A DNA stretch of 64,000 nucleotides from contig NZ_CP128595.1 in assembly GCF_030444335.1 (NCBI RefSeq), positions 2,246,501 to 2,310,500 on the forward strand. The letters run 5' to 3'. The stretch is from Polaribacter huanghezhanensis. GTDB lineage: Bacteria > Bacteroidota > Bacteroidia > Flavobacteriales > Flavobacteriaceae. The stretch's first letter is position 1; every line of letters starts with the position of its first letter. Under the pieces are notes generated by a model. The model worked only from the letters and a program-made list of their open reading frames with translations, was not told the origin of the DNA and searched no databases. Of this stretch, positions 9,999-29,078 are shown one piece after another. Both the position numbers and the translations under genes were made by a program.

Positions 9999-10093
9999 AT
10001 TTTAAAAATCCTTTTTACAAACATACTATAAAAATCCTGTCAGTTCGCATGAATTATATTCATAAAATGATAATGGTTTATTTGTATGTCCGT

Positions 10094-10138
10094 TCGAGCG
10101 GAGTCGAGAACTACTTTTTACCTCTCGACTCCGCTCGA
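10094..10138. repeat. Palindromic repeat R1, two-arm copy
   Basis: TCGAGCGGAGTCGAGA (10094-10109) and its exact reverse complement (10123-10138) flank a 13-base loop. The element sits between the divergent trmH and sirtuin genes. The same 16-mer or close variants recur at 11405, 13751, 13795, 16557 and twice inside purL. Confidence 0.85.
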
Positions 10139-10234
10139 GGAGACATTTTACTTATCATTCCTATAAGAAAGGAAAATTCAAACAAAATAATCAATGATTT
10201 TAAAAATCATATTTTAGCTTAAAATTTATGTTAG

Positions 10235-11404: not shown

Positions 11405-11420
11405 TCTAGACTCCGTTCGA
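11405..11420. repeat. Decayed single arm of repeat R1
   Basis: TCTAGACTCCGTTCGA differs at two of 16 positions from the R1 arm TCTCGACTCCGCTCGA. No partner arm is seen nearby, so this looks like a degenerate copy. Confidence 0.5.
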
Positions 11421-11437
11421 TATGATATTAAAATAAA

Positions 11438-13707: not shown

Positions 13708-13845
13708 TGCCACGAATTCACGAACTCTTTTATAGAAACTAAATGTCACATCGAGCGGAGTCGAGATGCAATTATTAGTCAAACTTTTATGAGTTCTCGA
13801 CTCCGCTCGAACGGACAAAAAAATTACAATTCGTGCATTCGTGGC
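13708..13845. repeat. Nested inverted repeats (R1 inside an outer GCCACGAATTCACGAA repeat)
   Basis: The outer arms (13708-13724 and 13829-13845) are 17 bases with one mismatch. The inner arms, TCGAGCGGAGTCGAGA at 13751-13766 and its perfect complement at 13795-13810, are repeat R1. The structure fills the space between two convergent genes and could stop transcription in both directions. Confidence 0.85.
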
Positions 13846-16554: not shown

Positions 16555-16690
16555 GTTCTCGACTCCACTCGAACTGACAACTGACAACTGTTCACTGATA
16601 ATTATATCATGAGATTCCTCAATCGTGCCTCATTTCGGAATGACAACTGACAACTGTTCACTGTTCACTGTTCACTGATAATTGTTCACC
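16555..16690. repeat. Repeat patch: R1 arm, heptads and an R2 arm
   Basis: One R1-like arm (TCTCGACTCCACTCGA, 16557-16572) runs into heptads (TGACAAC, TGTTCAC, TGATAAT). A single R2 arm follows (16609-16645, starting ATGAGATTCCTCAATCG and ending GGAATGACA), then more heptads. The last heptads overlap the 3' end of the hypothetical gene that ends at 16672. Confidence 0.8.
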
Positions 16691-25334: not shown

Positions 25335-28300
25335 ATGATTCATTTCTTTGGAAACCAAGACAGCAAGGTATTTGCCGTTCAAACAGCAAAAGAATTATCT
25401 GCCGAAAACACCAACAAATTAAATTGGCTTTTTGGCAATCAACCTAAAATAAACACGGCGTCTCTCGACGCTTTTTTTATTGGTCCTCGTGCCGCAATGA
25501 TTACTCCTTGGAGTACCAATGCCGTTGAGATTACTCAAAATATGGGCATTGAAGGAATCATTAGAATTGAAGAGTTTATAGCTTCAACAAAAGAATTTTC
25601 TGATTTTGACCCCATGATTTCTCAAAAATTCGAAAGCTTGCATCAAGCCATTTTTACGGTTGATGTATCTCCAGAAAAAGTACTAGAGATTGACAATATT
25701 GCTGCTTATAATGCGCAAGAAGGTTTGGCATTGAATGATGAAGAAGTAGTGTATTTAGAAAGTTTAGCAAAAAAATTAAACCGAAAATTAACAGATTCTG
25801 AAGTATTCGGATTTAGTCAAGTAAATTCAGAACACTGTCGTCATAAAATATTTAACGGAACTTTTGTTATTGATGGTGATGAAAAACCTGTATCATTATT
25901 CAAAATGATTCGAAAAACTTCAGAAGCAAATCCAAATGATATTGTTTCTGCCTACAAAGACAACGTAGCTTTTGTAAAAGGTCCAAAAGTGGAACAGTTT
26001 GCGCCAAAAAGTGCAGACAAACCAGATTATTACGAAATCAAAACATACGAATCTGTCATTTCTATCAAAGCAGAAACGCATAACTTTCCAACAACTGTTG
26101 AACCGTTTAACGGAGCAGCAACAGGTTCTGGTGGAGAAATTAGAGACAGGCTTGCTGGCGGAAAAGGTTCGTTGCCTTTAGCGGGAACTGCGGTATATAT
26201 GACTTCCTATTCTCGTTTAGAAAAAAATCGTCCTTGGGAACAAGCAATGACAGCACGTAAATGGTTGTATCAAACTCCGATGGATATTTTAATCAAAGCT
26301 TCTAACGGAGCGTCCGATTTTGGAAATAAATTCGGGCAACCTTTAATTACAGGTTCTGTATTAACTTTTGAACATGATGAATCTAACGATGTCATTTCGA
26401 GCTTGTCATCTCGAGCGGAGTCGAGAGACGAGAAATCTGCACGTAAACTTGGTTTCGATAAAGTAATCATGCAAGCAGGCGGAATCGGTTACGGAAAAGC
26501 AGATCAAGCATTAAAAGACGTTCCGCAAGAAGGAGATAAAATTGTCATTCTTGGTGGAGATAATTATAGAATCGGAATGGGTGGCGCAGCAGTTTCATCC
26601 GCAAATACTGGTGCTTTTGCTTCAGGAATCGAATTAAACGCCATTCAACGTTCTAATCCAGAAATGCAAAAGAGAGCGTCCAACGCTATTCGTGGAATGG
26701 TAGAAAGTGATGTAAATCCGATTGTTTCTATTCACGATCATGGTGCTGGCGGACATTTAAATTGTTTATCAGAATTGGTTGAAGAAACTGGTGGATTGAT
26801 AGATTTAGATAAATTACCTGTTGGAGATCCAACGTTATCAGCAAAAGAAATTATCGGAAACGAATCTCAAGAACGCATGGGATTGGTTATCGGAAAAAAA
26901 CATATTGACACGTTACAACGAATCGCAGAACGCGAGCGCTCGCCAATGTACACAGTTGGTGATGTTACCAACGATCATAAATTTACATTTAAATCTAAAA
27001 CTACGGGAGAGAAACCAATGGATTTAGACTTGCATGATATGTTTGGAAGTTCTCCAAAAACCATCATGACGGATTCAACAATAGTTAGAAATTATCAAGA
27101 GCTACACTATTCTACAGAAAATTTTAAAACCTATTTAGAACAAGTGTTGCAATTAGAAGCGGTTGCTTGTAAAGATTGGTTGACCAATAAAGTAGATCGT
27201 TGTGTAGGCGGTAAAGTTGCCAAACAACAATGTGTGGGGCCGTTGCAAATTCCATTGAACAATGTTGGTGTGATGGCGTTAGATTATAAAGGAAAAGAAG
27301 GAATTGCAACTTCAATTGGCCACTCGCCTATTTCTGGATTGATTGATCCGGTTGCAGGAAGTAAAAATTCGATTGCAGAAGCATTGACAAATATTATTTG
27401 GGCGCCGCTTAAAGAAAATTTAAAATACGTTTCTTTATCTGCAAACTGGATGTGGCCTTGTAAAAATGAAGGAGAAGATGCGCGTTTGTTTAAAGCTGTA
27501 GAAGCAATATCCCAATTTGCAATCGACTTGGGAATCAATGTTCCGACAGGAAAAGATTCGTTGTCTATGAAACAGAAATATCCAAACGAAGAAGTTATTT
27601 CTCCAGGAACGGTCATTATTTCTGCTGCCGCAAATTGTATCGATATTACGAAAGTTGTAGAACCTGTATTACAACAGGATAAAGGAAGTATTTATTACAT
27701 CAACTTATCTGAAGATGCTTATAAGTTAGGCGGAAGTTCTTTTGCACAAACTTTAAATAGAATCGGTACAGAAGCTCCATCAATAAAAAACAATCAAAAT
27801 TTTAAAAACACTTTTAATACCATTCAAGAACTGATTAAAGCGGGTAAAGTTGTTGCCGGACATGATGTTGCTTCTGGTGGATTGATTACAACATTGTTAG
27901 AAATGTGTTTTGCTGATAACAATTTAGGCGCAGATTATGATTTGAGTTCTTTAAACGAAGTTGATGCAATCAAAGTGTTATTTGCTGAAAACTCAGGGAT
28001 TGTTTTTCAAGCTACAGATACTTCGGTAGAAGCTATTTTAAAGGAAGCAAATGTTACTTATCACAAAATTGGAAACGTAACTACTTCTGGAAAAGTAAAC
28101 ATCAAAAATAATGCTGAATCATTTAGTTTAAATGTTTCAGAAATGAGAAAAATTTGGTACAACACTTCTTATTTACTAGATCAAAAGCAAACAGCAAACG
28201 GATTGGCGAAAGCAAGAATTGAAAACTTTGCAAATCAACCTTTACAATATACATTTCCAACTCATTTTACAGGACTTCTCGACTCCGCTCGAAGTGACAG

Positions 28301-29078
28301 TAAGTTGTCAGGTCGAGCGCAGTCGAGACCAAAATCAGCCATCCTTAGAGAAAAAGGATCTAACTCTGAACGTGAAATGGCAAACGCTATGTATTTAGCT
28401 GGATTTGATGTAAAAGATGTTCATATGACGGATTTGATTTCTGGTAGAGAAAACTTAGAAGACATTCAGTTTTTAGGAGCTGTTGGTGGATTCTCAAATT
28501 CTGATGTGTTGGGTTCTGCAAAAGGTTGGGCTGGCGCAATTAAATACAACGAAAAGGCACATACTGTTATCAATAATTTCTTTAAAAGAGAAGATACTTT
28601 ATCGGTCGGAATTTGTAATGGTTGTCAGTTATTTATGGAATTAGAATTGATTTATCCAGAACATAATGTTCATGGAAAAATGCTACACAACAATTCTAAA
28701 AAACACGAAAGTGCGTTTACGTCTGTTAAAATTCAAGAAAATAACTCGGTGATGTTATCGAGTTTAGCAGGAAGTACTTTAGGAGTTTGGATATCTCACG
28801 GAGAAGGAAAATTTCATCTTCCAGAACCTGAAGAAAACTATAACATTGTTGCAAAATACGGATATTCAGAGTATCCATCAAATCCAAATGGATCTGATTT
28901 TAACACCGCAATGATGAGCGACAAAACAGGTCGTCATTTAGTAATGATGCCGCATATTGAGCGTTCTACTTTTCAATGGAATTGGGCACATTACCCTCAA
29001 GGAAGAAAAGACGAAGTTTCGCCTTGGTTAGAAGCATTTGTAAATGCTAAAAACTGGGTTGAGAATAGCAATCAATAA
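25335..29078 (+). CDS. purL: Phosphoribosylformylglycinamidine synthase (with two repeat-derived inserts)
   Basis: The large single-chain PurL makes FGAM from FGAR, ATP and glutamine in purine synthesis. At 1247 residues it is longer than the roughly 1220 I expect in this family. Seen in order: an N-terminal domain with SEHCRHKIF (about 165), the two ATP-grasp-like synthetase halves with HDHGAGGHLNCLSELVEE and HDVASGGL, and the C-terminal glutaminase with the nucleophile Cys1094 in GICNGCQLF and the HGEGKFHLP segment. Two stretches do not look like PurL: residues about 353-368 (ISSLSSRAESRDEKS) and 981-998 (LLDSARSDSKLSGRAQSR). They are translations of repeat R1, inserted in frame, the second in the linker before the glutaminase. 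Core motifs are intact, so the enzyme should work. Confidence 0.97.
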   Translation: MIHFFGNQDSKVFAVQTAKELSAENTNKLNWLFGNQPKINTASLDAFFIGPRAAMITPWSTNAVEITQNMGIEGIIRIEEFIASTKEFSDFDPMISQKFESLHQAIFTVDVSPEKVLEIDNIAAYNAQEGLALNDEEVVYLESLAKKLNRKLTDSEVFGFSQVNSEHCRHKIFNGTFVIDGDEKPVSLFKMIRKTSEANPNDIVSAYKDNVAFVKGPKVEQFAPKSADKPDYYEIKTYESVISIKAETHNFPTTVEPFNGAATGSGGEIRDRLAGGKGSLPLAGTAVYMTSYSRLEKNRPWEQAMTARKWLYQTPMDILIKASNGASDFGNKFGQPLITGSVLTFEHDESNDVISSLSSRAESRDEKSARKLGFDKVIMQAGGIGYGKADQALKDVPQEGDKIVILGGDNYRIGMGGAAVSSANTGAFASGIELNAIQRSNPEMQKRASNAIRGMVESDVNPIVSIHDHGAGGHLNCLSELVEETGGLIDLDKLPVGDPTLSAKEIIGNESQERMGLVIGKKHIDTLQRIAERERSPMYTVGDVTNDHKFTFKSKTTGEKPMDLDLHDMFGSSPKTIMTDSTIVRNYQELHYSTENFKTYLEQVLQLEAVACKDWLTNKVDRCVGGKVAKQQCVGPLQIPLNNVGVMALDYKGKEGIATSIGHSPISGLIDPVAGSKNSIAEALTNIIWAPLKENLKYVSLSANWMWPCKNEGEDARLFKAVEAISQFAIDLGINVPTGKDSLSMKQKYPNEEVISPGTVIISAAANCIDITKVVEPVLQQDKGSIYYINLSEDAYKLGGSSFAQTLNRIGTEAPSIKNNQNFKNTFNTIQELIKAGKVVAGHDVASGGLITTLLEMCFADNNLGADYDLSSLNEVDAIKVLFAENSGIVFQATDTSVEAILKEANVTYHKIGNVTTSGKVNIKNNAESFSLNVSEMRKIWYNTSYLLDQKQTANGLAKARIENFANQPLQYTFPTHFTGLLDSARSDSKLSGRAQSRPKSAILREKGSNSEREMANAMYLAGFDVKDVHMTDLISGRENLEDIQFLGAVGGFSNSDVLGSAKGWAGAIKYNEKAHTVINNFFKREDTLSVGICNGCQLFMELELIYPEHNVHGKMLHNNSKKHESAFTSVKIQENNSVMLSSLAGSTLGVWISHGEGKFHLPEPEENYNIVAKYGYSEYPSNPNGSDFNTAMMSDKTGRHLVMMPHIERSTFQWNWAHYPQGRKDEVSPWLEAFVNAKNWVENSNQ
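26391..26438. repeat. R1-family palindromic repeat inside purL (copy 1)
   Basis: Within the gene, GTCATTTCGAGC is followed by CTCGAGCGGAGTCGAG and then GAGAAATCT. The core is the same as intergenic R1. The 48 bases equal 16 codons, so the frame is kept and no stop arises. Exact ends are uncertain by a few bases. Confidence 0.85.
28277..28328. repeat. R1 palindromic repeat inside purL (copy 2)
   Basis: Two 23-base arms face each other: 28277-28299 begins TCTCGACTCCGCTCGA and 28306-28328 ends GTCGAGCGCAGTCGAGA. They differ from perfect complementarity at only three positions, around a 6-base loop. The insert lies in the linker between the synthetase and glutaminase parts. Confidence 0.88.

Follow-up and report, generated by a model that had tools for sequence, protein, structure and literature searches.

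TGTC-tagged palindromic repeats in the PurL linker and other protein loops of Polaribacter huanghezhanensis and its relatives

The purL gene of Polaribacter huanghezhanensis, which codes for phosphoribosylformylglycinamidine synthase, contains a hairpin-forming palindrome at positions 28277-28328 of the 64,000-nucleotide stretch analysed here (referred to as the window; positions 2,246,501 to 2,310,500 of contig NZ_CP128595.1), which raises the question of what this sequence is and how it came to be read in frame within a housekeeping enzyme. We found that it is made of two units of a dispersed repeat, and that palindromes of several families occupy the same linker in other genomes. Very probably, these units are TGTC-tagged, non-autonomous elements of the repetitive extragenic palindrome (REP) type that repeatedly enter permissive protein loops, where they are tolerated in frame as readable and harmless.

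A two-unit hairpin and its repeat family

Direct reading confirmed the hairpin described in an earlier sequence-only reading, in which a 6-base loop separates two 23-base arms that mismatch at three positions. The features of the locus are as follows.

25335-29078, plus strand: purL, phosphoribosylformylglycinamidine synthase, 1247 aa, the host gene (NCBIfam NF003672, 1481 bits, cut-off 783; Pfam domains)
28277-28299, minus strand: first unit of the linker pair (TGTC tag on the minus strand at 28296-28299; stem tail to 28274)
28300-28305, no strand: 6-base loop GTAAGT between the two tags
28306-28328, plus strand: second unit of the linker pair (TGTC tag at 28306-28309; stem tail to 28331)
28326-29060, plus strand: glutaminase domain GATase_5, residues 998-1242, immediately 3′ of the insert (Pfam)

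Arm 2 (TGTCAGGTCGAGCGCAGTCGAGA) differs from the reverse complement of arm 1 (TCTCGACTCCGCTCGAAGTGACA) at 3 of 23 positions; an inverted-repeat search at default settings listed nothing at 28277-28328, and the arms were verified by a separate check as well as by eye. The insert is read in frame on the plus strand as the peptide LLDSARSDSKLSGRAQSR (PurL residues 981-998), and its placement in the linker before the glutaminase domain also held, as GATase_5 starts at residue 998 directly after it. Folding of the 56-nt region as RNA gave −32.2 kcal/mol compared to −14.6±2.7 for shuffled sequences (z = −6.6; 0 of 200 as good), and the two DNA strands of the same region folded at −19.3 and −21.2 (z = −6.4 and −6.8).

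Each unit is about 26 nt long and comprises an unpaired TGTC tag and a 22-nt imperfect hairpin, with the consensus TGTC-W-NN-TCGAGCGSAGTCGAGA-N′N′-T, in which NN and N′N′ covary. The 17-nt core GTCGAGCGNAGTCGAGA occurs 138 times in the 2.59-Mb genome (at most 2 mismatches; 0 for the reversed control pattern) and 147 times when the tag is added to the search pattern, a copy number above that of all 165 other genomes searched in the same GTDB genus (median 4). Within the window, a 16-nt core gave 9 matches (at most 3 mismatches) against 0.26 expected. In the stretches fetched, we read 148 copies with at most 3 core mismatches, 128 of which had at most 1. Among these 128, the tag stands 7 bases before the core with T, G, T and C at 99, 97, 100 and 98%, respectively, and the flanks are free; after the tag come three positions that vary more, then the core, a further two bases complementary to two of the three, and finally a T (89%). 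The two variable stem pairs were Watson-Crick in 126 (positions −2/+17) and 134 (positions −1/+16) of 141 copies, far above the shuffle control (means 54 and 41, maxima 70 and 60), and therefore the hairpin itself, and not its letters alone, has been kept. In the consensus, a short TCGA/TCGA helix, or a tandem G-A version with a GCGSAG loop, makes up the stem, and the tail is a single conserved T; when two consensus units were folded, each formed 6 pairs and a loop of at least 6 nt. Counting units less than 100 bases apart as a pair, the 148 units fall into 46 single units, 44 HH pairs (tags outside), 6 TT pairs (tags inside) and 1 HT pair (tandem), the purL pair being one of the six TT pairs.

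The proposal that the insert is a copy of a dispersed element was thus borne out by copy number and stem covariation. The alternative of a coincidental likeness, or of a palindrome that arises from back-reading a conserved protein motif, is refuted by the same two results and by a genome-wide family that uses all frames in unrelated proteins, and we dismiss it as practically impossible. The description of the locus as a full hairpin copy needs amending: the hairpin is real, and its two arms are two units that were probably gained in two steps, as described below.

The PurL linker and other protein loops across relatives

Matches to purL came from 57 of 59 genomes, and among the 166 genomes of the genus 159 yielded the linker region, our genome included in both counts. 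We read the linkers of 113 genomes of the genus, 60 of which we selected, in part according to linker length and copy number, and of 76 of 80 named genomes, the linker pattern having failed on the other 4; removal of 13 rows with identical flanks left 176 distinct linkers. By our own reading, on which all class assignments (T+, T-, C, S and others) rest, 119 of them carry no palindrome, 43 carry one and 14 are uncertain, several of the latter looking like decayed palindromes. Relatives without the stretch are common, and the suggestion that purL is a permissive site is supported by the palindrome-type inserts in 43 of the 176.

The two-unit TT pair is shared by our genome (G000) and G075. In G143, the linker holds the first unit only (CTTCTCGACTCCGCTCGAAGTGACA, then native-like sequence) and lacks the second; the first unit also stands alone in G025 and, in degenerate form, in Kordia zhangzhouensis. 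A plus-strand unit occurs in ten other linkers (for instance KLPVISSAVEKSRP in G117, G060 and G106), and an HH pair in Winogradskyella immobilis and two others. CGTC-type palindromes were read in 16 linkers (VIASGTKQS and similar), a third palindrome family in G183, G035 and G005, and the remaining six linkers fall into smaller classes. Palindromes of another kind were seen in the PurL linkers of L353, L389 and L384 (GTCAAGTCACGACTTGAC, ATCAAGTCGCGACTTGAC and GGTCAGTCGAGACTGACC, respectively). Because G143 has the first unit only, the linker of our genome would have been entered in two steps, by the minus-strand unit first and the plus-strand unit second.

The TGTC core (at most 3 mismatches) was found in 20 of the 176 linkers, that is, 5 of 53 in the set fetched by similarity only, 10 of 59 in the chosen set and 5 of 64 in the named set, compared to 0 of 3398, 0 of 3593 and 5 of 4080 neighbouring windows of the same genes; 2 of these 20 (G116 and Polaribacter IC066) sit in other classes by our reading. 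All seven cores together matched 45 of 184 linkers (a few genomes counted twice) and 54 of 11592 windows, but the cores other than TGTC had been picked after the linkers were seen, and the test was hence repeated with the TGTC core alone, as given above. The inserts also follow genome content. Where a TGTC unit sits in the linker, the median genome-wide TGTC copy number is 60.5 (14 genomes), compared to 4.5 for genomes with an empty linker (76 genomes, P ~ 1×10−6) and 17.5 for those with another family there (14 genomes, P = 0.003); the first contrast persisted among genomes that had not been selected for copy number (5 against 39 genomes, P ~ 2×10−4), all of these tests ignoring kinship among genomes. 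The PurL linker thus seems to report which palindrome family abounds in its genome.

These data bear on two other explanations. A strong predicted hairpin (−32.2 kcal/mol) that coincides exactly with a domain boundary is what one would expect of a selected translational pause, in which the mRNA hairpin slows ribosomes between the synthetase and glutaminase domains and aids domain folding, and slowed ribosomes had been proposed in the sequence-only reading. However, the 119 linkers lack any palindrome, G143 and G025 keep one unit, a single consensus unit folds at only −5.6, far weaker than the pair, and the pair of G075 has 4 substitutions, all in paired bases, by which three pairs are lost and one becomes G-U. 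The inserts, moreover, track genome copy number. A selected pause is accordingly highly improbable, and neither the peptide nor the mRNA hairpin would, most likely, have a selected function. The second explanation, an alternative raised for the Rickettsia elements RPE-4/6/7, is that of one ancient insertion into the PurL linker that later diverged into different palindromes. All inserts lie within the same few codons, and plus-orientation TGTC and CGTC forms can match in length (KLPVISSAVEKSRP and KLPVIASGTKQSRP), as a common origin would have it. The inserts nevertheless match different families in both orientations and several frames, TGTC-type inserts accompany a high TGTC copy number in the same genome, and many inserts match a family core with 0 or 1 mismatch, a precision that drift would presumably not recreate. 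We therefore consider a single ancient insertion quite unlikely.

Units of the TGTC repeat lie within other genes as well. By script, 29 of 141 units lie within an open reading frame (ORF) of at least 130 codons; leaving out 6 units within 30 codons of an ORF end, 23 units remain, at 20 sites in 16 genes. The host genes, several of whose names rest on matches below the NCBIfam cut-offs, are ribD, trpF, metG, waaA, moeA, mobA, icmF, pyrD, hisA, topB (three sites), purL (two sites), genes for a D-cysteine desulfhydrase-family protein, a moeB-like protein, a pabB/trpE-family protein and a YdiJ-like oxidase, and a gene (two sites) that we take to be kynurenine-monooxygenase-like (kmo-like), whose NCBIfam matches are FAD monooxygenases below cut-off. 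By our reading, all six frames of the TGTC element are in use in genes. The 20 intragenic sites include 5 same-gene pairs (topB 3, kmo-like 1, purL 1) against 0.16 expected, a number reached in 0 of 5000 simulations that assumed 2200 genes with lengths resampled from 44 genes of the window; the intragenic sites of this genome are thus concentrated in a few genes.

Orthologous loops were compared by protein-anchored alignment, the palindrome origin being again our own reading. The hisA loop carries an HH pair in G000 and in G013; G025 and G011 have other palindromes there, and G003 has none. The metG loop holds units in G000 and G013, in different frames, and five native residues in the five others compared; the moeA loop holds units in the same two genomes and none in five others. 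A palindrome occupies the mobA loop of G000 and of both others compared (G025 and G013), and in icmF one is present in G000 and G025 and absent from G013, G026 and G003. At the third topB site, varied palindromes or remnants occur in G025, G013, G021, G017, G026 and G011 and none in G002 and G003. Palindrome-derived peptides were seen in many compared species in the hisA (L322, L323, L328) and topB (L302, L305, L307) loops, in topB at three separate loops. The loops of topB, hisA, metG, moeA, mobA and pyrD look like the PurL linker case, an illustration of how housekeeping enzymes can gain peptide loops from short repeats. In PurL, the pair would have stayed because such an element is readable in any of six frames, its net length change is a multiple of three, and the linker tolerates changes of length and sequence.

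Further copies lie elsewhere in the window.

10087-10145, no strand: intergenic HH pair (tags outside) of the TGTC repeat, from core matches
13744-13817, no strand: intergenic HH pair (tags outside) of the TGTC repeat, from core matches
11405-11427, minus strand: degenerate single TGTC unit, 2 core mismatches, tag TATC
16557-16579, minus strand: single TGTC unit, one core mismatch

Two related forms were met outside it. A compound palindrome, approximately TGTCNNNTCGAGTGATTTTC - TGTC unit - AAAGAAAATTGTATCGAGA, nests the unit in A/T-rich arms in four copies (L079, genome positions 278995 and 281815; L105, 1449250; L115, 1881101), and the PurL linker of Kordia jejudonensis holds a related compound form. 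In G035, arrays of a related palindrome, TGTCATTTCGACCTTGTGGAGA, repeat at regular intervals of mostly about 101 or 123 bases (contig C1, 569271-569494, 620050-620273, 1827724-1828608 and 3387667-3389002), and nearly all of the 75 genome-wide matches to the searched pattern are of this type.

Junctions, the nested copy and the search for a mobiliser

Compared to relatives, single units bring a net length change of 0 to +27 nt, in multiples of three, +15 being the commonest; it recurs in metG, moeA, the second kmo-like site, the first topB site (several species) and the second purL unit relative to G143. The purL TT pair amounts to +21 nt relative to G011. Clean empty sites could not be defined, the intragenic loops being too diverged between species, and the +15 change was not resolvable into an insertion plus a deletion. 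No target-site duplication was recognised, although one could go unnoticed in most flanking loops, which have diverged too far. At the place taken by the minus-strand tag in G143, the empty linker of G011 has GACA; this motif is missing from the empty linkers of G147 and G168.

The second repeat of purL, previously taken for a half copy, offers another view of a junction.

26404-26429, plus strand: the other purL unit (TGTCATCTCGAGCGGAGTCGAGAGAC), nested
26390-26437, plus strand: outer palindrome TGTCATTTCGAGCTTGTC...GAGAAATC, apparently split by the inner unit directly after TTGTC

Its relation to the repeat was upheld, and the half-copy label was not: the locus looks like a unit nested in a palindrome of the same style, laid out as TGTCATTTCGAGCTTGTC, 22 bases and GAGAAATC. 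An unsplit outer form, TGTCATTTCGAGCTTGTCGAGAAATC, is found in L342 of G075, and L350, apparently from the same genome given its identical PurL flanks, has no insert at this upstream place in purL. The same nested layout recurs at 2541889 and 2392303 in our genome, with a degenerate or shortened outer arm. The nested copy is most simply read as 22 nt inserted cleanly and directly 3′ of TGTC, but since the whole form can also fold into a single longer hairpin, it might be a subfamily rather than an insertion. A search for it across the 166 genomes of the genus found 6 with one match each, 5 of these with 2-3 mismatches, and with so few and mostly degenerate matches the idea of a TGTC target stays weak. 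That the element targets certain DNA, with TGT or TGTC at its junctions, remains suggestive only: nested copies directly 3′ of TGTC and the GACA of G011 speak for it, and the G147 and G168 linkers and the metG empty sites, which lack TGTC at the place of the plus-strand tag, speak against it.

Insertions of the IS200/IS605 type occur 3′ of a fixed tetranucleotide and without target duplication, and a Y1 transposase was the class of mobiliser searched for. Y1_Tnp had no match in this genome at E ≤ 0.001, and none of 20 Y1 loci inspected in relatives had an adjacent TGTC unit; in L177 and L178, a TGTC pair lies 1.1-1.2 kb from Y1, and L178 also has, at about 0.7 kb, a weak match with 4 mismatches. 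Across 36 genomes, the Y1 count showed no clear correlation with copy number (rho = 0.25, P = 0.15), and 6 of 15 genomes with at least 10 copies have no Y1. A Y1 transposase was accordingly rejected as the mobiliser, within a search confined to that class. Three of four Y1 loci examined for repeats carry repeats of their own on both sides of the Y1 gene, such as the palindromes unrelated to TGTC units that border those of L165 (1299-1919, ACAAGGGGTTTAAACCCCTTGT) and L172 (1235-2012, TTAGCGCGAGCATCTTGCTCG).

The units would be non-autonomous and spread by some enzyme. One specific scenario, which we find unlikely, is that TGTC and CGTC palindromes insert as single-stranded hairpins directly 3′ of TGT or TGTC by means of a non-Y1 enzyme; the PurL linker and a fixed set of loops in enzymes would then be standing docking sites at which families replace each other over time, and the nested purL copy the fossil of one exact event.

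Several observations weigh against repeated entry of mobile units into permissive loops. The inserts are not clean 26- or 22-nt additions, so that neighbouring bases must have been lost or loops have drifted, and this copy-rich genome has no Y1 transposase match. The genomes compared represent one per species, and no transposition was seen among them. In favour of such entry, flexibility of the linker is weakly indicated by a pLDDT below 50 at residues 414-440 of a modelled fragment of 692 residues (insert at 426-443), the model having a mean pLDDT of 66 and a 25-row alignment. Also in its favour, the scatter of the linker classes on the PurL tree is close to that of shuffled labels: they need 41 changes (162 labelled rows, 43 of them palindrome-bearing), compared to a mean of 42.2 and a minimum of 39 for shuffles; this tree was built quickly, without the linker, from a fragment of at most about 240 residues, the 14 uncertain rows were dropped and the class labels are our own, which makes the exact numbers soft. 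Allele exchange at purL between species may, on the other hand, account for part of the scatter. Of the 8 windows upstream of about 28200, 6 place G000 nearer to G147, and of the 8 windows downstream, 7 place it nearer to G075, relative identity thus switching side near that position; G000 and G075 also share the pair without being nearest rows on the fragment tree. That such exchange between related species spread a few insertion events is nonetheless rather doubtful as the explanation, since it leaves the different families, orientations and frames at the site unexplained and its signal is confined to a few windows.

Relation to known repeats

REPs with a GTAG tag, which are associated with RAYT (Y1/IS200-like) transposases, resemble the present family in having a tag, a hairpin and BIME-like pairs. 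In contrast, the units described here have no GTAG tag, this genome has no Y1_Tnp, and no TGTC units flank the 20 Y1 loci inspected in relatives. Neither PurL palindromes nor TGTC repeats in Polaribacter or Tenacibaculum were the subject of any paper among the literature listed.

A closer match is provided by the CGTC REPs (CGTC-1 to -4; Di Nocera et al. 2013). In the part of that paper considered here, they are described from five phyla, Bacteroidetes among them, and many repeats have TGTC in place of CGTC (PMC3733652). The same text reports a predominance of HH pairs, rare TT pairs, compensatory sub-families, intragenic units coding in frame, and no dedicated transposase (PMC3733652). Both groups thus share an unpaired 4-nt tag at one end (CGTC, TGTC or CCTC in that super-family, here TGTC), a short imperfect hairpin, many copies, compensatory stem changes, a similar arrangement (here 44 HH, 6 TT and 1 HT), in-frame intragenic units and a host among the Bacteroidetes. 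However, families 1-4 are given stems of 8-9 bp, loops of 4-5 nt and a tail that is mostly CCA (PMC3733652), whereas our units have 6 pairs each, a loop of at least 6 nt and one conserved T (89% of 128) as tail. Because stem, loop and tail differ, the family appears to be a TGTC-tagged relative of the CGTC REPs that lies outside families 1-4, set apart by that description and not by consensus letters. As far as the portion of the defining paper considered here goes, CGTC-type REPs are an orphan class for which no transposase was found (PMC3733652), and the copy-rich species P. huanghezhanensis, G025, G035, G075, G013 and G143 are suited to a hunt for the mobiliser.

The CGTC paper also equates RPE-6 with CGTC-1 and RPE-4 with CGTC-4 (PMC3733652). 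In Rickettsia, orthologues can carry different groups among RPE-4/6/7 at one and the same site, and the Rickettsia japonica genome paper, in the part considered here, weighed hot spots against one old insertion and favoured a common origin without excluding hot spots (PMC3767692). The likeness extends to in-frame palindromes in unrelated ORFs and to orthologues with different groups at or near the same site; the RPEs are placed at solvent-exposed positions, and an ATGAC motif (complement GTCAT) is frequent (PMC3767692). They differ in length, rows of 84-192 nt being among those listed in Table 1 compared to TGTC units of about 26 nt, and in interpretation, the PurL data favouring repeated entry where that paper leaned to common origin (PMC3767692). 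By analogy, the PurL linker looks like the same phenomenon as the RPE sites, in another phylum and in many more genomes. The choice between hot spots and one old insertion thereby becomes directly testable at one linker, with 176 distinct sequences, several families, both orientations, several frames and a one-unit intermediate.

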